Translations under genes and position numbers: made by a program
Assembly (NCBI RefSeq): GCF_003751085.1
Contig: NZ_RJJY01000001.1
Coordinates: 3,968,001-4,032,000, forward strand
DNA: 64,000 nucleotides
Reading direction: 5' to 3'
Origin: Micromonospora sp. Llam0
GTDB lineage: Bacteria; Actinomycetota; Actinomycetes; Mycobacteriales; Micromonosporaceae
Notes under the pieces: generated by a model
Seen by the model: the letters and a program-made list of their open reading frames with translations, nothing else
Databases searched by the model: none
Told to the model about the DNA's origin: nothing
Shown: piece after piece, positions 52,492 through 63,503 of the stretch
Numbering within the stretch: the first letter of the stretch is position 1
Layout of the letters: each line of letters starts with the position of its first letter

Positions 52492-52565
52492 GGGGCGGTA
52501 GCTCAGCCGGTCAGAGCAGGGGACTCATAATCCCTCGGTCGCGGGTTCGAGCCCCGCCCGCCCCA
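52492..52565 (+). tRNA. tRNA-Met (CAU anticodon)
   Basis: A 74-nt cloverleaf. Acceptor GGGGCGG pairs with CCGCCCC, D arm GCTC/GAGC, anticodon arm GGGGA-CTCATAA-TCCCT (CAT at 52526-52528), T arm GCGGG-TTCGAGC-CCCGC, discriminator A. CCA is not encoded. It is most likely elongator tRNA-Met: the acceptor starts with a paired G1-C72, unlike the initiator. A lysidine-modified tRNA-Ile with CAU anticodon is the alternative. Confidence 0.9.
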
Positions 52566-52609
52566 CTTGTTGATCTTCCGTGCGAACCTGGCCGGACCAC
52601 CCAAGTGAG

Positions 52610-52625
52610 GTACAATTTTCTGTAC
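52610..52625. promoter_or_regulatory. YefM operator
   Basis: GTACA-ATTTTC-TGTAC, an inverted repeat containing the TGTACA-type half-sites bound by YefM antitoxins, placed 17 bp before the yefM start. It supports autoregulation of the module. Confidence 0.75.
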
Positions 52626-52641
52626 TTCCCTGGAGGTGGTC

Positions 52642-52917
52642 ATGCGGACCGTGAACTTCACCCAGCTACGGCAGAACCTGGCCGCCGAACTCGACAGCGT
52701 GATCAACGACGCGGAGGAAGTGGTGGTGACCCGGTCAGGCCACGATCCCGTGGTGATCGTGCCGCTTGCGGAGTACGAGTCGATGAAGGAAACCGAGTAC
52801 CTCCTGCGCAGCCCGAGCAACGCCGCCGCGCTGCGCCGATCGATGGCGGAGCTTGAGAAGGGCGACGCGGCCGAGAGGGATCTGATCGACCCGGCCACCG
52901 TGCGGGATGTCGCATGA
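52642..52917 (+). CDS. yefM: YefM/Phd-family antitoxin
   Basis: 91 residues from the ATG at 52642 after TGGAGGTGG. The N-terminal Phd/YefM DNA-binding fold reads MRTVNFTQLRQNLAAELDSV followed by EEVVVTRSGHDPVVIVPLAEYESMKET. The C-terminal part (LRSPSNAAALRRSMAELEKG) is the toxin-neutralising segment with the usual L-x-x-x-x-N-A-x-R-L-like pattern. It binds its own operator, and the YoeB complex represses more strongly. Its stop overlaps the toxin start (ATGA). The module begins 77 bp after tRNA-Met. Confidence 0.93.
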   Translation: MRTVNFTQLRQNLAAELDSVINDAEEVVVTRSGHDPVVIVPLAEYESMKETEYLLRSPSNAAALRRSMAELEKGDAAERDLIDPATVRDVA

Positions 52918-53171
52918 GGCTGGTCTTCACCGCGACGGCGTGGAGCCAGTATCTCAGCCATACAGACCGTAAGTTGGTCAAGCGCATCAATGACCTCATT
53001 GCGGACGTGATGCGCAATGGATACCAGGGCATCGGCAAGCCGGAGCCTCTTCTGGGGGAGCTGTCCGGCTTCTGGTCCCGCCGGATCGATCGCGAACATC
53101 GGCTGGTGTATCGGATCACCAAGGACGACGTCGAGATCGTCGCCTGCCGTTACCACTACGTTGACCGGTAG
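52914..53171 (+). CDS. yoeB: YoeB-family mRNA interferase toxin
   Basis: 85 residues, the standard length. RelE/YoeB fold: MRLVFTATAWSQYLSHTDRK, KRINDLIADVMRNGYQGIGKPEPL, LSGFWSRRIDREHRLVYRI and the C-terminal CRYHYVDR with the conserved catalytic region (Glu in KPEPLLGEL, Arg in RRIDREHRLVY, His-Tyr near the end). YoeB cleaves mRNA at the ribosomal A site when freed from YefM. All residues expected of an active toxin appear present. Confidence 0.93.
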   Translation: MRLVFTATAWSQYLSHTDRKLVKRINDLIADVMRNGYQGIGKPEPLLGELSGFWSRRIDREHRLVYRITKDDVEIVACRYHYVDR

Positions 53172-53350
53172 CGGACTGGGCTGGAACCAGGAGCATCGGC
53201 CGTGTGCTGACCGGCCATGGGTCGGGGCGTTCGTTGGTGGACACGACATCGCCGTGACACCGCCGACTCTACTCGGTCCGGTGACGGTGTCGCCGCAGCA
53301 GCTCAGCCACCAACTGGCATCCGGTCTGCCGTTCAGCAGCCACTTACGGG

Positions 53351-54062: not shown

Positions 54063-54103
54063 TTGACAACCTTACACCGCAAGGCTGTACCTTACAGCGT
54101 AAG
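54063..54103. promoter_or_regulatory. Tandem TetR operators over a promoter
   Basis: CTTACACCGCAAG (54071-54083, one mismatch) and CTTACAGCGTAAG (54091-54103, perfect 5-bp arms) are repeated with 20-bp centre spacing, i.e. about two helical turns on one DNA face. TTGACA at 54063-54068 is a plausible -35 element for the rightward gene. Confidence 0.8.
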
Positions 54104-54143
54104 CCGAACGCGATTCGGGGAATCGACAGACGGGAGCGGGACC

Positions 54144-54878
54144 ATGGAACCAGTCGACACCGACGGGGTCGGCCAGCCAGGTGCCGGCCGGCGGATCTGC
54201 GTCGTCGGGGCGTCCGGGAAACTCGGGCGGTACATGGTGCGGCACGCGCTGGAGCGCGGGTACGAGGTCGTCGCCGTGTGCCGGGAGAAGAGCGTGCCCA
54301 AGCTGGCGGAGTTCGACGGACGGATCACCGTGGTCCCCGGGCCAACCAACTCCCATACGGTCATCGCCCAGGCGGTGCGCGGCTGCGACGCCGTGCTCAC
54401 GGTGCTGGTGCCGTGGGGCGTGCAGAATTACGCCTCGGGCACCGCGCAGGCGGTGCTCGACCATGCCGAGCCCGGTGCCCGGCTGATCTTCTCCTGCGGT
54501 TGGCACATCAGCCACGACGGTCAGGACGTCTACCCCCGGGGGTTCAAGCTCTACACGGCGGTCTTCGGCTGGCTGGCGAAGCTGCTGCGGGTGGTGGACG
54601 TCAACGACCAGGTACGGGCCTGCCGACGGGTCTTCGCCAGCGGCGCCGACTGGACCGTCGTACGCGGCAGCGACCTCGAGGAAGGCGACAGCCAGGGCCT
54701 GCCGGTGTGGAGCCGGCACGTGGGCGATCCGGTGCTGGCCAGCAACCTGACCCGGCGGATCGACTACGCCCGGTTCATGGTGGAGGCCGTGGACGACGAC
54801 ACCCTCATCCGGGAGGCCCCGGCCATCGTCGGTCGGCTCACCCCGTCCGCCCTCGCCCACGCCGGTCGACCGCAGTGA
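54144..54878 (+). CDS. NAD(P)-binding NmrA/atypical SDR-family protein
   Basis: 244 residues from the ATG at 54144 (GGGAGCGGG upstream). A Rossmann domain starts RRICVVGASGKLGRYMVRHA (G-x-x-G-x-x-G), followed by VVAVCREKSVPKLAEF, HTVIAQAVRGCDAVLTVLVP, RLIFSCGWHISHDG and a C-terminal WTVVRGSDLEEGDSQGLPVW, the layout of NAD(P)H-dependent atypical SDRs. Catalytic Tyr/Lys cannot be assigned. It is probably an inducible oxidoreductase or redox-sensing protein under the adjacent TetR regulator. Its last 41 bp overlap the truncated end of the CHAT gene. Confidence 0.85.
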   Translation: MEPVDTDGVGQPGAGRRICVVGASGKLGRYMVRHALERGYEVVAVCREKSVPKLAEFDGRITVVPGPTNSHTVIAQAVRGCDAVLTVLVPWGVQNYASGTAQAVLDHAEPGARLIFSCGWHISHDGQDVYPRGFKLYTAVFGWLAKLLRVVDVNDQVRACRRVFASGADWTVVRGSDLEEGDSQGLPVWSRHVGDPVLASNLTRRIDYARFMVEAVDDDTLIREAPAIVGRLTPSALAHAGRPQ

Positions 54879-57068
54879 CCGACGCGGTCGACGCGGCCCA
54901 GCCGGTCCGGCACGCGCTGAGCAGCACCACCTGGCAGCTGGTCAGATCCAGCCCGGTGATGTCGTCGGCGCGCAGGTACCCGTCGTCGTCGCCGCTCGGG
55001 CTCAGGCAGAGCGCACCGGGCGTGACCCCGGTGTCGGCACCGTACATCCCGTGGGTGGCGAAGTGGACAACCTCGCATCCGGGCAGCGTCGACAGCACCG
55101 CCGCACGGGTGGCCGCCGCCCCGATCAGCGCTGTCGCGCCATAGTCGGCGGCGACTCGACGGGCCTCCCGCTCGGCATGGGTCAGCGACGGCAGCCGTGG
55201 CACCGGTAGGCCGGGTGCGATCGGGGTGTCCGGCGGGCTCGGGTTTCCGACCGCCAGGATCCGGCGGGCCAGTGCCGCAGGTGTAACCGCCCGGCCGGCC
55301 AACTCGGCGACGAGCGCGACGGAGGGCATCACGGTAACCGGCCACCGGTCGATGAGGGACTCACCCGGACCGGACCGCAGGGCGGCGAACGGCACTCGGT
55401 CGAGTTCGCCGTCGGGCACCACCACCAGCAGTTCGGCCCGGCTCCGGCGCAGTGCCCCGGCCACCGCCCCGATCAGCAGCTGAGAGCAGGCGTCGACGTC
55501 CGCGACGGCGTAGTGGTCGGCGAAGTCCGGCACCAGCAGCTCGCGGGTCAGGCCCAGGTACGCGTCGGCCTGCGGGTCGGTGGCCCGAAACGATTTCAGC
55601 TCGTCCGCTCCGACCCGGGCGTGCTCGATGCCGGTGGCGTCGACGTACCAGATGTGCAGTCCGGCGACCACGCCCGCCTCCCCGGGGTCGGCGACCGGTC
55701 CGACCAGGCTGTACACGAGGAATCCGGTGCTGCGCAAGGCGGCGAGCTCGACCATGGCGGCGGCCGTCAGCGCCGCCGGCATCCGGACCCCGTCCAGCGG
55801 GTCCGCCAGGGCCGGCAGTTTCTCCGGAGCCGGAAGTTCGGAACTCGCCGGACCGCCGCCCACCGGCCGGCGGGACCGCAACCGGCGCAGCAGGCTGCGC
55901 CCACGCGCCCGTTCGACCGCTTCGAGACCGCCGGCGACGTCGCCGGCGGCGAGCCGGCACGTCTGCAACGCACGGTACGCCTGTGCCTGGCTCTCCAGCA
56001 GATCGACATGCTGCTGGTCGTCGACGACGTCACGCCGCACGGCTTCCCAGTCGGCGACCGCGTCGAGCAGAAGAGTCTCCGCGTCCGCCAGGTCGCCCGC
56101 AGCCATGGTCAGCCGGGCGAGGTTGAACCGCGCGGTTCCCCGGGCGCCCGAATCCCCGGGTCGACCAGCCGCACCGACCGCCGGGCCAAGGCCCGCGCCC
56201 GGGTCAGCCGGCCGGCCCGGGCGTCCATGGCGGCCAGGCTGATCGCGGCCCGCCCGGCCAGATGCGGGGTGCCGCGAGTGAGCGTCTCCTGGTAGACCTG
56301 CCGGACCGCCGCCACGGCCCGCTCGTCCTCACCGGTCTCGGCCAGCGCCAGAGCCCAGGCCATCCGGGCCTGGAGATACTGTTCGCGTCGCCCATGCCGC
56401 TCGCACAGTGTCATCGCCTGCTCGGCCAACGCCACCGCCGCCGCAGGCTCACCGGCCGCCCGGTGGACCGACGCCGAAGTGACCAGCATGCCGAGACGAA
56501 CCCGGTCGGCCAGCGCGGGTGCGATCAACGCCGGATCGTTGATCTCGCGGCTCCCGGTCACCACCCGACTCGCCGCGCCCAGCGTCTCGACCGGTCGCCC
56601 CTGGCGCAGCAGTGACTGAGCGAGCATGCCGTAGGCCGACACGGTATGTCTCGGATCCCCGATCGGCTCCGCCGCTGCGACCGCCTCCCGGGCCGCCACC
56701 TCGGCGTCGATGAACCGGTCCAGCCAGTACAGGGCGTCGGAGTACAGGCACTGAGCCTGCATCCCGTCGGCGCGGGCCAACGGTGTCGCCCACCGCGGCC
56801 AAGGTGGCAGCAGTGTCAGCGCGCGTCGGCTCGCGTCGAGCTGCGCCGGCCGGTCCTCCAGCGCCGCCGCCTGCCGGGCGACCTGGCTTCACAGTGAGCC
56901 GGCGAGGATCGGGGCGATCGGCTCCCATACCTGTGCCGCGGACCGGAAGGCGGCGTAGGCCTCGGCTGGTCGCCCCGCCGCGTCCAACGCCTCGGCCCGC
57001 CGTCGGGCGGCCATCGCCCGCAGCATGTCCCACAGGCCGGGTGTGGGTGACCGGTCACGGTGCCGCAT
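54838..57068 (-). pseudogene. Degraded TPR-CHAT caspase-like protease gene
   Basis: Homology runs through one gene with three lesions. From ~57068 (or the Met at 57026) it reads RRRAEALDAAGRPAEAYAAF and reaches an in-frame TGA at 56889. The same frame continues (ARQAAALEDRPAQLDASRRA) into TPR repeats (YWLDRFIDAEVAAREAVAAA ... GMLAQSLLRQGRP). Near 56150 a one-base loss in a CCCGGGG run shifts it to the frame of ARFNLARLTMAAGDLADAET and the CHAT domain. The catalytic dyad is present (VVHFATHGMY and LLSACRTG), but the protein ends 20 residues after the Cys. The ~70-80 residues that normally complete CHAT are missing, where the NmrA-like gene converges. CHAT proteases act in bacterial immunity and programmed death. 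Confidence 0.8.
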
Positions 57069-57194
57069 ACCGCTGTCTGACGGACCACGAACCGGGGCCA
57101 TCCGACGTGCGGCCACCCCTGCGCCCGCTGACTGCCACACGCGGTCCGTCAGGTAAGCGGCATCACGAGTCCACCCAGTGGAAGGAGTACGGCG

Positions 57195-59492
57195 TTGAGC
57201 GACGTCAGCACGCGGATAGCCGCAGTGCTCGCGGCCCGGCAGACCTGGCAGCCGACGGTGGACGGGGAGCTGCGGCGGTGGACGGCGGTCCAGCGGCTGC
57301 TCGCCGCCGTCGCCGACGCGGTCGCCGACATCGACCCCGGCGGGCCCGGTCCGACCGTCGTCGCGGACGTCGCGGTCGACATCCCAGCCCTGCAGAAGCT
57401 GGCGACGGAGTCGGTCGCGACGCTGGCCGCGGTCCGAGCGCGGGTCAACCGCCGGTCGATCAACGTCGGGGTGAGCGGCCGGGCCCGCAACGGCAAGAGC
57501 ACCCTGCTGCAGTCGCTGTCCGGGCTCGGCGACGAGCAGATCCCCAGCGGTACGGGGCAGCCGGTGACGGCGGTCCGCAGCCGGATCTACCACTCGGGCA
57601 GCCAGCGGGAGGCGCACCTGTCGACGCACACCGAGTCGTCGTTCTGCGAAGAGGTGCTCGCCCCGTACCACGCCGCACTCGGTCTCGACCCGGCCCCGCG
57701 CAGCATCGACGAGTTCGCCCGGTTCGACTACTCGGCCGCCGGGGCCGCGTTGGCCGACCGGATGGAGGACTACCCGGTACTCGGGCCGATGCTGGCCAGG
57801 TTACGGGAGATGCAGGCCGGTCTGCCCAGCTACCGGCCGCTGCTGACCGGTGAACTGATCCGGGTCGAGCTCGCCGAGCTGCGCAGCTGGGTGGCGTACC
57901 CGCAGCGCAACGACCCGGCGGCCGACCGGCGGTACCTGGCGGTCAAGGACGCCAGCATCACCTGCGAGTTCCCGATCAGCGAGGTGATCGCGCTCGGCCT
58001 CATCGACCTGCCCGGCCTGGGGGAACTGGTGCCGAACGCCGAGGCGCACCACCTCGCCGGGCTGCAGAACGACGTCGACTTCGTCCTCGTGGTGAAACGG
58101 CCGGTCGACACCAACGCGCTGTGGGCCAAGGAGGACGGCCTCGCCCTCGGGCTGATCGGGCGAGCGCGGGGCGCCGCCGCGATGAACGACTTCGCGGCGA
58201 TCCTGGTCAACACCGGCGGGTGCGCCGAGGCCAACGTCCGGGCGTTGACCGACGACATCCGGCAACGCCTCAACCACGGTACCGACGACGCCGTGTACCG
58301 GGTCGTCCTCGCCGACGCCGCCGACCGCGCGGCCGTACGAACCGGTGTGCTCGACGTCGTGCTGCGACACCTCGCCGAGGCGCTGCCCCGGATGGATGCC
58401 GCGGTCATCGACCACGCGTTCGCGGCCTGTGACGGTAACCGTCAACGGATCCTGGCCGTGGTGGCGGACCTGTTGACCGCGATGCGGTCGATGGTCACCC
58501 CGACGCCGATGGAGCTACGCATCGCCCGGGCCAACGGGATGCGCGCCGAGCTCGCCGCCTCCCTGCAGGAGTGGATGCAGCAGTTGGAGAGCCGCATCGA
58601 CGACAGCTACGAGGACGGCGAGTTCCTCGACCGAATCTCGGCCGTCCAGCACGAGGTACGGGAGTGGATTCTGGACGGCTTCGGCAAGGGCACCGACGAG
58701 TGGAAGAAGGACGCCGTCGCCGCGATGCAGGTGGACAAGGGTGCCGCCGCCTTCGCCACCCGGGCGCTCAACGGCATCCGGGTCCAGCTGGCCAGCCGGT
58801 TCGGCGTCATCGACGACATCCTGGAGGCTCGGCGGCAGCAATTCTGGGCGAGTCTGGTTACCGCACTCGGGCCCGGGCTGGCGCCGCTGCTGGACGACGC
58901 CGTGCCGGCGGTCGCGCTGTCCCGGCTGGCCGACCGTCTGGCCGACGCGTCGGCTCCCTGCCCCGGCCTGAGCCGGTCGCTGCGCGACGTGCTCGACATC
59001 AGGCTGGACTACCGGACCCGGGTACTGCCCCGACTGGTACGCGCGTTGCGACTCCTGCAACCGGAGCCGGGCAGCGGGATGCCGGGTGCGCTCACGTCGA
59101 TCCTGCCGATCCCGCGCACCGCCGACGGCGCGGACGAGCTGTTCCTGCGGGTCACCCACCTGGCCAGGGAGGCAGCCCACGACGTGGCCGGGATCTTGTC
59201 CGGTGAGCCGAGCCTGATGGTGACCGCGTTGTTCGCCTACGGCGAGCAGTTCGAGGACTCGTTCATCCGGTCCGACACGTCGGAGGCGGAGTTCCGCCGG
59301 CTGGTGGAGAACTTCCGGGACCAGTTGTGGCCGTCCGAGACAGCCGGACCGGCCCTGGCCACCGCCCGGTACCAGCGGTTGCGGGGTGCGCTCGGCGCGG
59401 TCCGGGAAGCGCTCGACGGCACGACCGTCCCGGGGTCCGCCGCGGCACCGAGCCCGACGTCCGTCCCAGCGCAGGAGGGGAACCAGCGGTGA
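57195..59492 (+). CDS. Dynamin-like large GTPase
   Basis: 765 residues from a TTG start seven bases after GAAGGAG. After an ~85-residue helical N-terminus, the GTPase domain begins INVGVSGRARNGKSTLLQSL (P-loop residues 95-102). A conserved Thr region (GTGQPVTAVRS) acts as switch I, and IDLPGLGELVPNAEAHH supplies switch II (D271-LPG). FAAILVNTGG occupies the base-recognition position, without a canonical NKxD. From ~400 it is long helical (stalk-like): MRAELAASLQEWMQQLESRI, YEDGEFLDRISAVQHEVREW, RRQQFWASLVTALGPGLAPL. No membrane segment is seen. It starts a four-gene operon whose junctions all overlap, and diverges from the CHAT pseudogene. Likely a membrane-remodelling or regulatory GTPase in a conflict system. 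Confidence 0.8.
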   Translation: MSDVSTRIAAVLAARQTWQPTVDGELRRWTAVQRLLAAVADAVADIDPGGPGPTVVADVAVDIPALQKLATESVATLAAVRARVNRRSINVGVSGRARNGKSTLLQSLSGLGDEQIPSGTGQPVTAVRSRIYHSGSQREAHLSTHTESSFCEEVLAPYHAALGLDPAPRSIDEFARFDYSAAGAALADRMEDYPVLGPMLARLREMQAGLPSYRPLLTGELIRVELAELRSWVAYPQRNDPAADRRYLAVKDASITCEFPISEVIALGLIDLPGLGELVPNAEAHHLAGLQNDVDFVLVVKRPVDTNALWAKEDGLALGLIGRARGAAAMNDFAAILVNTGGCAEANVRALTDDIRQRLNHGTDDAVYRVVLADAADRAAVRTGVLDVVLRHLAEALPRMDAAVIDHAFAACDGNRQRILAVVADLLTAMRSMVTPTPMELRIARANGMRAELAASLQEWMQQLESRIDDSYEDGEFLDRISAVQHEVREWILDGFGKGTDEWKKDAVAAMQVDKGAAAFATRALNGIRVQLASRFGVIDDILEARRQQFWASLVTALGPGLAPLLDDAVPAVALSRLADRLADASAPCPGLSRSLRDVLDIRLDYRTRVLPRLVRALRLLQPEPGSGMPGALTSILPIPRTADGADELFLRVTHLAREAAHDVAGILSGEPSLMVTALFAYGEQFEDSFIRSDTSEAEFRRLVENFRDQLWPSETAGPALATARYQRLRGALGAVREALDGTTVPGSAAAPSPTSVPAQEGNQR

Positions 59493-60634
59493 CAGCCCAG
59501 ACGTTCAAGGTCGCGGTGGTCGGTCCGTCCCGGGTGGGCAAGACCACCCTGCTGACCGCGATTCTGTCGGACACCAATCGGATGCTCGCCGGCACGCCGG
59601 TCAGCGTGGCGATGGACGAGGCGACCGAGAAGCGGGTCTCGGTCCAGCGCAAGGAGCTGCGCAGGGCGATCGAGGCGCAGGAGTTCAACCCCGCCGCGCT
59701 GGAGGGAAACCAGCAGATCGTCCACTACCACGTCTCGCTGCGCGCCGCCGGCGACGAGGCACTCGAGATTCCGTTCGACATCCTCGACTACCCGGGCGGT
59801 TGGCTCGACCCGGCGAAACGGGCCGACGTACCGCACGCCCAGCAGCGGTGGCCGCAGTGCGAGCGGCACATCGAGGACAGCGTGATGCTACTGGTGCCGA
59901 TCGACTCGGCGGTGCTGATGGAAGCGGTCACCCCGGCGCACCGGCGGGCCGTGCCGGACCTGCTCGGTCTGGAGGACACCGAGGCGATGGTGCGCAAGTG
60001 GGCCCGGTCCCGCAACCGGGAGGAGCACCGTCAAGAGCCGGCGGTGCTGGTGCTCGCCCCGATGAAGTGCGAAAAGTACTTCGACGACAACGGTGGCACG
60101 GGACGCGACGCCGGCCGGCTGCGCGCGACGATCCGGGCGAAGTACGCCAACGTGCTGGAGATCGTGCGGGAGGAGGCCCAGGACCGGCCGGTGCGGATCG
60201 TGTACGCGCCGATCGACACCTACGGGTGTGTCGAACTGATGGACACCGAATGGGTCGACGACGGCAGTGGGCAGCTGTTGTTCCGCGGTCACTACCGGTT
60301 CCGGGGGAACCCGCCCAGGATCTCGGTGAAGGCCGCCGGGTCGGTGATGCAGCAGCTGTGCGGCTGCCTCATCGACGGTCGCGACGCGGCCGAGGCGGAG
60401 AATCTGGCCGGCTACCGGGTCGGCGTCCGAAACCTGTTGGATCGGCATGCGCAGCCGAAGGGTTTCTGGGGCACGCTCGGCTACCACCTCGGCGGTGAAG
60501 CCGCCGAGAACCGGCGCGACCGGACGTATCTCGGTGGCCAGATCGACGCCGCCACCCGGCGCCGGATCCAGCTGACCGAGGCCGTGGAGAAGCTGGCGAA
60601 GATGCCGCAGGACCAACGGATCGAGGAGTGGTGA
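59489..60634 (+). CDS. Second GTPase of the operon (double-GTPase-type partner)
   Basis: 381 residues from the GTG at 59489, overlapping the previous stop (GTGA) with GGAGGGG upstream. It opens TFKVAVVGPSRVGKTTLLTA (P-loop residues ~12-20). Switch II is in IPFDILDYPGGWLDPAKRAD. LVLAPMKCEKYF could be the base-specificity strand (K-C-E in place of N-K-x-D). The region between holds a helix-rich insert (EKRVSVQRKELRRAIEAQEF). The C-terminal ~80 residues are charged and helical (AATRRRIQLTEAVEKLAKMP). No signal or membrane segment. It resembles the GTPases that occur in pairs in actinobacterial NTP-dependent conflict systems. Confidence 0.75.
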   Translation: MTAQTFKVAVVGPSRVGKTTLLTAILSDTNRMLAGTPVSVAMDEATEKRVSVQRKELRRAIEAQEFNPAALEGNQQIVHYHVSLRAAGDEALEIPFDILDYPGGWLDPAKRADVPHAQQRWPQCERHIEDSVMLLVPIDSAVLMEAVTPAHRRAVPDLLGLEDTEAMVRKWARSRNREEHRQEPAVLVLAPMKCEKYFDDNGGTGRDAGRLRATIRAKYANVLEIVREEAQDRPVRIVYAPIDTYGCVELMDTEWVDDGSGQLLFRGHYRFRGNPPRISVKAAGSVMQQLCGCLIDGRDAAEAENLAGYRVGVRNLLDRHAQPKGFWGTLGYHLGGEAAENRRDRTYLGGQIDAATRRRIQLTEAVEKLAKMPQDQRIEEW

Positions 60635-61506
60635 CGGTGCACGCGTACCTGCTGACTCGGGGCACCCCCCGCAACCTGGACTACGCCTTCCTGGGCTCGG
60701 AACCCGCGACGCACTGGTGGGACCGGCTGTCGGACGCCAACTTCATCAACATCGACAGGTTCGAGGTGGCCGCCAGGGCCGACGGCAGCGGGCTGAGTCT
60801 GCTGCTGTCCGGGCTGCCGTCCGCCCGGCGGGACAGCATCGGCACCCCGATCCGGTTCACCGTGGTGGTGGACGGCCTGCAGGACGACCCCGAGCTGCTC
60901 GCCGACCTGGTCGCGGTCGCGCTCAGCCCGGCCGGGCGGGCCGCCCTCGGTCGACAGCTGGACGAGGAGTTTCCCTACCCGGAGATCAACGCGATCCGCG
61001 CCGGCACGGATCCCGGCACCGACATCGGCGTACGGACGCTGCGGGCGTTGCGTTCGGGCAGCACCGACGAGGCCCTCGCCGGTGCCGGAACCCGGACCGG
61101 AACAGGCGATGGAACGGGTGGCGGAACAACTGCCGACGGCGGTGCTGCTCCGGCCGGCCGGGACGGGACGGACCGCACCGGTTGCTGGGTCGGCCCGGTC
61201 GACGATCCGCTCGCCCGGGGTGCTTTCCTGGCCCGAGTGGCCCGGATGGCCGACGGCTCGACCGGCTTCGCGTTCACCTCGCACGCGCTGGCCAGCGTGG
61301 CCGGCGCGCAGCGGGCGGCCGAGACGCTCGGCGCGGACGCGGTGATCCTGTTGCACGACGGCGGCCCGGCCGGAATCCAGCCACTGGGAAAAGCACCGGC
61401 GGGCACGGCGGGCGGCAGCTGGCCGCGGCCGGCCCTGATCGTGCTGCTCTCCCTGGCCGGGTTGGCGATCGCGCTGCTGATCCGGTGGCTCATCAGGTGG
61501 TTGTGA
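60631..61506 (+). CDS. GTPase-operon membrane-anchored partner
   Basis: 291 residues from the GTG at 60631 overlapping the previous stop (a GTG at 60628 is equivalent). The N-terminal ~120 residues form a domain with AYLLTRGTPRNLDYAFLGSE, THWWDRLSDANFINIDRFEV and IGTPIRFTVVVDGLQDDPEL, perhaps a GTPase-associated adaptor domain; I cannot name it firmly. A Gly/Thr-rich linker (TRTGTGDGTGGGTTADGGAA) leads to a second small module and one C-terminal membrane helix (ALIVLLSLAGLAIALLIRWL) with almost no tail, i.e. a tail-anchored cytoplasmic protein. It could dock the GTPases on the membrane. Confidence 0.75.
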   Translation: MTVHAYLLTRGTPRNLDYAFLGSEPATHWWDRLSDANFINIDRFEVAARADGSGLSLLLSGLPSARRDSIGTPIRFTVVVDGLQDDPELLADLVAVALSPAGRAALGRQLDEEFPYPEINAIRAGTDPGTDIGVRTLRALRSGSTDEALAGAGTRTGTGDGTGGGTTADGGAAPAGRDGTDRTGCWVGPVDDPLARGAFLARVARMADGSTGFAFTSHALASVAGAQRAAETLGADAVILLHDGGPAGIQPLGKAPAGTAGGSWPRPALIVLLSLAGLAIALLIRWLIRWL

Positions 61507-62222
61507 CGGCGGCGCGACGGCCCGGGATCACCCTGCACACGGCCGACTTCGGCGCGCTGCGGGCGGAGGTCGTCGTCGATCCGCCGGTCGTGACCGGGTC
61601 CGTCACGTCGCCTGTCGACGGACAACGGTGGCCGGTCAGTGGCTGGTTCGCGATCCGGCCGGAACCGGTACGCGGCACGGCGGCGCTGCGGGCGCTGGCC
61701 CGGACCGGCTCGGCGTACACCCTTCACGGGCGACTCGTCCTGCGGCTCGGTGACGCGTCGGTCGAGTGTCAGCTTCGCCCGGACGGGCGGTATCCCACGG
61801 TCGTCGGCGCGGACCGGCCGCCGCGCATCCACCAGGCCACCGCCGATCAGGTGTTCGCGGCGGAGCTGACCCGGCTCATGGCCGATGCGCAGTCACGGAT
61901 CGCCAAGCTGAGAGCGCAGCTCACCGCCGACGCCATCGCGGAACTGATCCGGCAGGAAGGCGGCAGCGGGCGGCAGGCGTTCCTGCGGCTGCGGCTCGCC
62001 GAGCAGGAGTTGCGGTTGGGCCAGTTCGGCGCCGCAGTGCACACGATCGACGAAGCTGCGTCCGACGCCGTCGACAGTGCGGGGTGCGGCGCTCAGCCTG
62101 CCGAGTTCCGGCGGCAGCGCGACCGGCTCGTCGAGGCCCTGGACCGGGTGGCCGGGCGGCTGGCGGCACCCGTCGCCGAGTCCCTCCACGAAGCGGCCGA
62201 GCTGCTGCGTCGACGCAGTTGA
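61503..62222 (+). CDS. Fourth gene of GTPase operon, hypothetical
   Basis: 239 residues from the GTG at 61503, overlapping the previous stop (GTGA). The first ~120 residues are strand-rich (ITLHTADFGALRAEVVVDPP; YTLHGRLVLRLGDASVECQL), the rest helical: VFAAELTRLMADAQSRIAKL, ADAIAELIRQEGGSGRQAFL, LRLAEQELRLGQFGAAVHTI and EALDRVAGRLAAPVAESLHE. No signal, membrane segment or known motif. Its place in the operon suggests it is a structural partner or effector accessory of the GTPases. Confidence 0.7.
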   Translation: MTAARRPGITLHTADFGALRAEVVVDPPVVTGSVTSPVDGQRWPVSGWFAIRPEPVRGTAALRALARTGSAYTLHGRLVLRLGDASVECQLRPDGRYPTVVGADRPPRIHQATADQVFAAELTRLMADAQSRIAKLRAQLTADAIAELIRQEGGSGRQAFLRLRLAEQELRLGQFGAAVHTIDEAASDAVDSAGCGAQPAEFRRQRDRLVEALDRVAGRLAAPVAESLHEAAELLRRRS

Positions 62223-62483
62223 GCCGGTACGCCGGCAGTGCCGGCGTACCGGCTCGCCGGCCCGGTGTCCGGGGCTGGACGGGGCTGCGACGGCGGTCTC
62301 AGGATCCCTGTCCTACCTGGTCAGCGGCGTGGTGGTCGGGATAGCGTCCGGATTGCCCGGCGGGGACGCCCGCAGGCATCCATCGTCACCGACGCTCGTC
62401 GCGACCACCCACGGTCCGGCGACGCGAACCGGACGGCGCCCCGGTGATCGCGCGGTGACTCCCGTACGCCAGTGGGAGGACAG

Positions 62484-63503
62484 ATGCATTCGTCGTTTTC
62501 TGAATCCGAAGACCCGGTGCCGGCAGCCCGGCATTCCGCACATCCACTCAGCTGTGATTCCGCACATCCGCCCGCCCGGCGCCCCCCGCACCGGTCCACA
62601 CACCGGTCCGCGCGGCCGGACCGCGGCCGGCGTCGGGTTCGGGGTGTGCTCGCCGCGGCGACGGCCGCGCTGCTGGCGGTCGCCGGGCTCACGTTGATCC
62701 CGAACGCGAGCGCCGCCGAGAACCCGCTCGAACGGGGTCCGGCACCGAGCGCGTCCAGTGTCGCCGCCGCCCGGGGCCCGTTCGCGACGTCCCAGGTGAC
62801 GGTGTCGTCGCGCGATGCCGGCGGGTTCGGCGGCGGCACGATCTACTTCCCGACCAGCGGCGCCGAAGGCACCTTCGGCGGGGTGGCGGTCGCCCCCGGC
62901 TTCACCGCGTCCCGGTCGAGCATGGCCTGGTTGGGGCCCCGGCTGGCATCACAGGGATTCGTTGTATTCAATATTGATACCGTTACCCGCTCCGACCAGC
63001 CGGCGAGCCGGGGCCGGCAACTTCTCGCCGCGCTGGACTTCCTGGTGGAGCGCAGCCCGGTTCGGGACCGGGTGGATCCGGACCGACTCGCAGTGATGGG
63101 TCATTCGATGGGCGGTGGCGGCGCGTTCGAGGCGGCCGAGGCGCGCCCGACATTGCGGGCAGCGATTCCGCTCACCCCGTGGAATCTCCGCAAGAACTGG
63201 TCGCAGGTGCAGGTCCCGACGATGGTGATCGGCGCCGAACGAGACACGATCGCCTCGGTACGATTTCATTCCGAGCCGTTCTTCGACAGCCTTCCATCCG
63301 ATCTGGACAAGGCATATCTGGAGCTCAACAACGCCAGCCATTTCGCACCGAACATCCCGAACACCACCATCTCGTCGTTCAGCGTGGCCTGGCTGAAGCG
63401 CTTCGTCGACGACGACACCCGCTACGAGCAGTTTCTCTGCCCACCGCCCCGACCCGATGGAGAGATCTCCGAATATCAGGACACCTGCGCCCACGCGTCC
63501 TGA
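62484..63503 (+). CDS. Secreted cutinase/polyester hydrolase (PET-hydrolase homologue)
   Basis: 339 residues from the ATG at 62484 just after GGGAGGA. A long polar, His/Pro/Arg-rich leader (~55) precedes the signal-peptide core (GVLAAATAALLAVAGLTLIPNASA). The mature enzyme starts ENPLERGPAPSASSVAAARG and closely follows Thermobifida-type cutinases: APGFTASRSSMAWLGPRLAS, GHSMGGGGAFEAAEARP, IPLTPWNLRKNWS, ASHFAPNIPN and DDTRYEQFLCPPPRPD. The triad is Ser208, Asp254, His286. The Met after the Ser and the conserved Trp are present. The oxyanion/subsite aromatic is Phe (PGF) where the best-known PET hydrolases have Tyr. One C-terminal disulfide (FLC ... DTC) is likely. It should hydrolyse cutin and synthetic polyesters. 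Confidence 0.93.
   Translation: MHSSFSESEDPVPAARHSAHPLSCDSAHPPARRPPHRSTHRSARPDRGRRRVRGVLAAATAALLAVAGLTLIPNASAAENPLERGPAPSASSVAAARGPFATSQVTVSSRDAGGFGGGTIYFPTSGAEGTFGGVAVAPGFTASRSSMAWLGPRLASQGFVVFNIDTVTRSDQPASRGRQLLAALDFLVERSPVRDRVDPDRLAVMGHSMGGGGAFEAAEARPTLRAAIPLTPWNLRKNWSQVQVPTMVIGAERDTIASVRFHSEPFFDSLPSDLDKAYLELNNASHFAPNIPNTTISSFSVAWLKRFVDDDTRYEQFLCPPPRPDGEISEYQDTCAHAS

Follow-up and report, generated by a model that had tools for sequence, protein, structure and literature searches.

A 64,000-nucleotide stretch of Micromonospora sp. Llam0 (contig NZ_RJJY01000001.1, positions 3,968,001 to 4,032,000; hereafter the window) carries four consecutive genes, g1 to g4. They encode a dynamin-superfamily GTPase, a second GTPase, a membrane-anchored protein and a near-orphan protein, respectively. 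We find that g1-g2-g3 is a real accessory GTPase module that crosses phylum boundaries and has an additional fourth gene slot in Actinomycetota. Our preferred interpretation, which we hold at just under an even chance, is that g1-g2-g3, with or without g4, forms an accessory conflict module that moves horizontally and works as a GTPase switch tethered to the membrane. The window had previously been interpreted from its letters and translated open reading frames (ORFs) as a four-gene operon; this account is referred to below as the sequence-only reading. All four genes were present as ORFs on one strand, with guanine-plus-cytosine fractions of the coding type at the three codon positions (g1, 0.73/0.50/0.93; g2, 0.71/0.45/0.91; g3, 0.72/0.59/0.89; g4, 0.80/0.55/0.87). 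The description of every junction as a GTGA-type overlap was correct for g1/g2 and g3/g4, which overlap by 4 bp. The g2/g3 junction is probably a 2-nt gap instead, because database copy P0005 starts with the GTG at 60637 and many homologues start at the matching position.

The sequence-only reading called for a gene-neighbourhood survey, and this survey showed that g1, g2 and g3 recur together as an ordered set. We found g1-g2-g3 in this order at 33 of 53 distinct g1 loci, whereas five loci had g1-g2 (two of these at contig ends) and 15 had only g1 (one at a contig end). The complete loci comprise 22 from Actinomycetota, nine from Cyanobacteria, one from a spirochaete metagenome-assembled genome (MAG; locus L024) and one from a Methylococcaceae MAG (L048), the last two with two g2 copies each. 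As the same order recurs at this many distinct loci in four phyla, the association goes beyond chance. The 53 loci were obtained from 55 by removing the duplicates L099 (identical to L020) and L108 (identical to L046); L012, L015 and L025, which share contigs with L019, L027 and L014, never entered the locus set. Loci counted as ordered include L016, with a transposase gene interrupting g1, L021 and L049, with g1 as two ORFs, L038, with g3 as two ORFs, and L112, in which the g3 start, as called, overlaps g2. Three loci (L032, L110 and L039) reach a contig end.

Most solitary g1 copies fell into separate clades of a g1 tree (FastTree, midpoint-rooted, without support values). In one such actinobacterial clade, the solitary g1 genes at L014, L102 and L105 adjoin genes identified by eye as kinase-, PP2C- or vWA-like, perhaps a separate dynamin-kinase-phosphatase system. 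Another solitary relative (L111) lies near two g2-like GTPase genes on the opposite strand and a gene for a WD40-like protein, also by eye. Among 72,556 plasmid records, ten contained a g1 match at E ≤ 1e-5, including one replicon of 11.9 Mb. Gene order was inspected in three plasmid regions. A linear 360-kb plasmid of Streptomyces aurantiacus carries g1-g2-g3 followed by a 139-aa gene in the fourth slot, plasmid3 of Nostoc carneum carries g1-g2-g3, and a plasmid of Calothrix NIES-4105 has g1 but neither g2 nor g3.

The distribution of the module within the host family is patchy. A g1 match was found in 13 of 354 family genomes and in one of seven genus genomes, and the module was complete in seven of those 13 family genomes (L097, L098, L099, L100, L101, L108 and the window). 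Because the cluster is not core and g1, g2 and g3 do co-occur, the case that the sequence-only reading had raised against itself, a core cluster in all Micromonosporaceae or homologues that rarely occur together, does not hold. In sister genome G552 (L152), the genes that flank the cluster, whose proteins are 92% and 91% identical to those of the window, are separated by about 0.26 kb. The DNA similarity ends at window position 54887 (4412 in L152) and restarts at 62240 (4425 in L152). As the flanks meet in L152 with 12 bp between them, the TPR and CHAT ORFs together with g1-g4 form a single unit of about 7.35 kb that was either inserted or lost. In sister genome G553 (L153), too, the flanks lie near each other, and the right-hand gene is in pieces. 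The empty site in L153 retains 145 bp of CHAT sequence corresponding to window positions 55293-55437 (95%), and this remnant suggests that the G553 lineage probably once carried at least the CHAT part. The CHAT gene of the window has itself probably decayed, because its profile match stops short (Table 1), its ORF crosses the left boundary of the island and it is separate from the TPR part. A second, more distant g1-g2-g3 set is present in the same genome (L016, G000:C2, about 1792000-1798000); its g1 is broken up by a DDE transposase gene that lies on the other strand. Judged from these sequence comparisons, the module is accessory and horizontally moving.

The protein encoded by g1 had been described as dynamin-like, and both motifs on which this was based, GRARNGKS and DLPG, were read in the window. 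An alignment of 40 of the 59 g1 rows (A5) contained invariant residues in all 40 sequences: G95, G100, K101 and S102; D271, P273 and G274; and N339 at the presumed G4 position, which is a single N rather than NKxD or TKxD. Dynamin_N matched 35 of the 40 rows at E ≤ 0.01, and the window protein scored 17.9 bits, below the cut-off of 27. The predicted structure contained a GTPase domain from which a helical bundle or stalk continues, and the top Foldseek matches of the model were IniA, SynDLP and BDLP. Chains of these three proteins were not among the best 60 of 68 matches to the g1 profile at E ≤ 0.1. From its motifs, profile matches and predicted fold we conclude that g1 is a dynamin-superfamily GTPase.

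The product of g2 had been recognized as a separate GTPase without a canonical NKxD. Its GPSRVGKT and DYPGG motifs were confirmed, and a PxKCEK-type sequence is present in place of the NKxD that is absent from g2. G17, K18, D100, G103 and E195, the last within PxKCEK, were retained in all 36 rows of the g2 alignment (A4, drawn from 43 rows). Pfam DO-GTPase2 matched 25 of these 36 proteins at E ≤ 0.01 (best 2.2e-10), DO-GTPase1 matched two and MMR_HSR1 matched 17 at the same threshold. The window protein scored 19.7 bits with DO-GTPase2, below the 27-bit cut-off, and 16.5 bits with MMR_HSR1, below the cut-off of 21.9. Its motifs and the profile matches of its relatives indicate that g2 is a TRAFAC GTPase probably related to DO-GTPase2, and the DO-GTPase2 matches support the suggested likeness to actinobacterial GTPase-centred conflict systems.

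The g3 model contained a confidently predicted cytoplasmic alpha/beta domain and a hydrophobic C-terminal helix. This helix, together with the hydrophobicity of the sequence, agrees with the C-terminal membrane helix previously claimed for g3. The alignment of the family (A3) took in 29 of 35 g3 rows and P0006. No Pfam family matched window g3 at E ≤ 1, and no Pfam family matched window g4 at E ≤ 0.1, in keeping with the earlier view that neither family has been described. N_BRCA1_IG, an Ig-like domain, was matched in two of the 30 g3 proteins scanned. TagF and the longin-domain proteins FLCN, Lst4, Nprl2/3 and Ykt6 headed the results when the g3 model was compared by Foldseek and VIA, with faint fold similarity. 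TagF was rejected as a relative by sequence, as it was not among 12 rows at E ≤ 10 in PDB sequences. Homology of g3 to GAP1-N2, considered because of a D-x-x-G-R motif and the gene order, was also rejected; the hhalign probability was at most 0.25%, in a comparison that had no positive control. The g3 proteins of Acrocarpospora (L044, L050, L051 and L052) have a long tail beyond the membrane helix. On the basis of the predicted structure, g3 is a member of an unnamed family with a C-terminal membrane helix.

By eye, g4 has N-terminal strands and C-terminal helices. Its three database matches were g4 itself, a metagenome protein with 67% identity and, from Micromonospora sp. LOL_021, a protein of 243 aa with 85% identity over 68% of g4. 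As the tail of the LOL_021 protein resembles the right flank of the window by eye, LOL_021 seems to have a g4 gene at the identical site. Small same-strand ORFs of 124-213 aa, starting -25 to +62 bp relative to the g3 stop, were found at eight further actinobacterial loci (L018, L019, L020, L022, L023, L097, L098 and L109), such that this slot is occupied at nine of 22 complete actinobacterial loci, window counted. The same-strand ORF scan revealed no convincing candidate at the other complete actinobacterial loci; L100 has EACC1 in the slot. Two pairs of slot-4 proteins were related, L019-L022 (phmmer about 1e-19) and L020-L098 (about 1e-5), and window g4 matched the L018 protein weakly (blastp E 0.008-0.009 in the nine-protein set). 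A single alignable family was rejected, as leave-one-out profiles failed for all nine proteins (best E 0.41). We infer that these genes occupy one fast-evolving slot. No recurrent fourth gene was apparent by eye at the cyanobacterial loci. The unit originally proposed as four genes is better described as a conserved g1-g2-g3 set to which g4 is a variable actinobacterial addition.

Table 1. Coordinates of the module, its island and the adjacent genes (window positions).
Feature	Position	Strand	Description
g1	57195..59492	+	dynamin-superfamily GTPase, 765 aa; TTG start after GGAAGGAG; P-loop GRARNGKS 57477-57500
g2	59489..60634	+	TRAFAC GTPase, 381 aa, related to DO-GTPase2 by sequence; GPSRVGKT 59522-59545, DYPGG 59786-59800, G4-like PMKCEK
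g3	60637..61506	+	predicted membrane-anchored partner, 289 aa (alternative: 291 aa from 60631); conserved motifs TRGxxxDYxFLG and SxRxDxxxxxIR
g3 C-terminal transmembrane helix	61426..61500	+	model helix, residues 266-290 of the 291-aa reading, and sequence hydrophobicity
g4	61503..62222	+	near-orphan slot-4 protein, 239 aa
Accessory island (TPR/CHAT and g1-g4)	54888..62239		missing between the same flanking genes in sister genome
TPR-repeat ORF	56109..56780	-	divergent from g1, within island; TPR_12 1.4e-10
CHAT-domain ORF	54838..56106	-	profile match ends at 202 of 289; 3' end crosses left island boundary
Left flanking gene	54063..54878	+	NAD(P)-binding; outside module
Right flanking gene	62472..63503	+	PET-hydrolase-like; outside module

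Window positions 52492-53345 contain a tRNA-Met gene and, after it, the two genes of a YefM/YoeB toxin-antitoxin system (52636-52917 and 52914-53171). As 52567-53344 had no DNA match in L152 or L153, a second variable site lies near the island.

The sequence-only reading had also proposed a check for recurrent linkage to CHAT, TIR or other effector genes. Linkage to CHAT and caspase genes is recurrent but not general. Scanning the 55 loci with profiles identified caspase or CHAT genes in the examined flanks, several of them short, of seven of the 33 complete loci: four of 22 actinobacterial loci (window, L013, L022 and L100), three of nine cyanobacterial loci (L028, L031 and L033) and neither of the other two. 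At L100, g3, EACC1 (36.1 bits; cut-off 23.6) and a caspase gene are consecutive on one strand with gaps of 125 and 3 bp. L013 has a caspase gene and a gene for an AAA/LuxR-type protein downstream, and L022 has two CHAT genes and a caspase gene upstream of g1; at both loci the caspase gene is the nearest gene on the same strand. Other neighbours include a gene for an NB-ARC-TPR protein divergent from g1 (L019), a downstream gene for a BTAD-AAA protein (L020), ABC transporter genes downstream (L018), and glutamyl-tRNA reductase- and helicase-type genes downstream (L021). CHAT genes also lie 1.8 and 7.5 kb from the solitary g1 relatives L103 and L104. A Peptidase_C14 or CHAT gene was within 10 kb of the module in four of 13 actinobacterial genomes, compared to 0.42 expected under uniform placement (P 5.8e-4). 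The base-rate set was confined to Actinomycetota and comprised 13 genomes (G952, identical to G332, was dropped) as opposed to the 22 complete actinobacterial loci. Because this test was post hoc, covered 13 of 22 complete loci and ignored that accessory genes cluster and so have a higher true base rate, it is supportive at most.

An incidental linkage, in which the module is niche-specific cargo that shares variable regions with caspase, CHAT and STAND genes, is possible though not what we would expect; it is compatible with either functional reading discussed below. The post hoc nature of the test points in this direction, as do neighbours that vary in type, side and strand, the ABC transporter and housekeeping-type genes that flank the module at L018 and L021, and the examined flanks (several short) of 26 of the 33 complete loci, in which neither caspase nor CHAT was found. 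The tight one-strand run at L100 and the position of the caspase genes at L013 and L022 argue against it.

Our preferred conflict-module interpretation builds on features that sequence or structure prediction shows: the domains and membrane helix of the proteins, a conserved gene order, an accessory distribution and neighbouring protease genes. A mobile cluster of this kind in a soil bacterium is a good candidate for an immune or membrane-stress system, because g1-g3 recur as a set in distant bacteria, sometimes near caspase-type proteases. In the mechanism that we envisage, g3 would be anchored in the membrane through its C-terminal helix, and its cytoplasmic alpha/beta domain would bind g2, the switch GTPase. 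The trigger, which may be the entry of a phage or some other membrane lesion, would shift the nucleotide state of g2, with g4 perhaps reading the trigger in Actinomycetota. The dynamin g1 would then be recruited and assemble at the membrane, where it might remodel or seal it, or restrain the infected cell. In some lineages the trigger could be relayed to caspase or CHAT proteases encoded nearby.

Several results weigh against this mechanism, including the post hoc linkage test and the many flanks devoid of caspase and CHAT genes. A direct link between the module and phage was not found in these data. A scan of viral contigs for g1 returned 141 pattern stretches and no relatives, a result that says little on defence. 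PADLOC models gave weak matches to window g1 and g2 (best E 0.0082) and none to g3 or g4. The putative part of g3 as a GTPase binder draws on a faint fold similarity. Furthermore, as the CHAT gene of the window looks decayed while g1-g4 look intact, the module may do without CHAT.

The serious rival to the conflict interpretation is a module for membrane maintenance or envelope stress that plays no part in immunity, in which g2 and g3 would sense damage and g1 would repair or remodel the membrane, as is thought for DynA and IniA. We consider this a possible but somewhat doubtful explanation. DynA of Bacillus subtilis provides phage resistance as well as membrane surveillance against antibiotics (PMC8844932), the latter in line with a stress role, and a DO-GTPase family protein is present in some gammaproteobacterial psp operons with a predicted role in membrane stress (PMC11237479). 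The Foldseek matches of g1 to IniA, SynDLP and BDLP and the cyanobacterial loci without a recurrent fourth gene agree with such a role. The patchy island- and plasmid-borne spread, the fast-evolving fourth gene and the protease neighbours of some lineages argue against it, as these features are commoner in conflict systems. A developmental or cell-division GTPase cluster acting at septa or in branching is very improbable: complete sets are chiefly from Actinomycetota and Cyanobacteria, which have many filamentous members, but the module is absent from most of the other genus and family members, which develop in the same way, and it is also present in the spirochaete and methylococcal MAGs.

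We compared the conflict-module candidate with known systems. Eleos is made up of LeoA and LeoBC. Like Eleos, the module places dynamin-like GTPases in a small operon; unlike in Eleos, the third protein is anchored in the membrane, and the partner GTPase is not the same. PADLOC LeoBC matched five of 40 g1 rows at E ≤ 0.001 (best 9.5e-8) and LeoA matched one of 40, whereas window g1 and g2 matched neither model at this threshold; LeoA matched g2 at 0.043 when E ≤ 1 was allowed. PDC-M02A matched one of 36 g2 rows at 7.4e-4, and no curated NCBIfam match was found for g1-g4. As in SynDLP, BDLP and IniA, g1 has a predicted GTPase domain and helical stalk; the gene partners of the module differ from those of these three proteins and of DynA.

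The DO-GTPase/GAP1 and EACC1 systems were defined by Kaur et al. 2020 (PMC7159879). The module resembles DO-GTPase/GAP1 systems in its DO-GTPase2-related TRAFAC GTPase, dedicated partner, frequent membrane helices and variable extra genes. It differs in having a dynamin in its core, and the word dynamin is absent from that paper. GAP1-N2 (PF20013) had no match in the genome. The EACC1 and caspase genes that follow g1-g2-g3 at L100 are reminiscent of the two-gene EACC1-caspase systems (Kaur et al. 2020) in this one relative only, and neither domain had a Pfam match among the seven window proteins scanned. As far as tested, with N2 as the GAP1 type covered by dedicated searches, the module appears akin to DO-GTPase/GAP1 and Eleos and a member of neither.

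A 2018 review (PMC5827413) describes an HSR1 clade of cyanobacterial dynamins with a downstream gene for an HSR1-type GTP-binding protein, a succession of dynamin and GTPase genes like that of g1 and g2. Unlike that clade, for which the corresponding section mentions no third gene, the module includes g3. The HSR1 clade may correspond to the cyanobacterial g1-g2 pair. The same source reports an extended P-loop, GxxxxGKS/TxL/INALL/I, in nearly all cyanobacterial dynamins. Its (L/I)NAL(L/I) portion is absent from window g1, which reads GKSTLLQSL (full stretch GRARNGKSTLLQSL). In searches of open-licence papers we recognized no description of the three- or four-gene set, in which a dynamin is combined with a DO-GTPase-like partner and a third, membrane-anchored protein. 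The pairing of a dynamin gene with a downstream GTP-binding gene had already been published for cyanobacteria (PMC5827413).

A more far-reaching version of the conflict interpretation seems rather unlikely to us. It proposes a new immune system, present in at least four phyla, in which a longin-like receptor anchored in the membrane (g3) would hold g2, which would fire a Mx/mitofusin-like g1 at the membrane, with g4 as a fast-evolving sensor and with exchangeable caspase, CHAT and STAND outputs in Actinomycetota. If true, it would provide a bacterial counterpart of longin-GTPase regulation and of antiviral dynamins within one operon. Should the conflict interpretation itself be correct, a dynamin would join the prokaryotic GTPase-switch conflict systems, attention would be drawn to the membrane-anchored g3 family, to which we could assign no Pfam model, and the module would offer a compact, transferable operon for studying how dynamins are recruited to membranes and possibly block phage.

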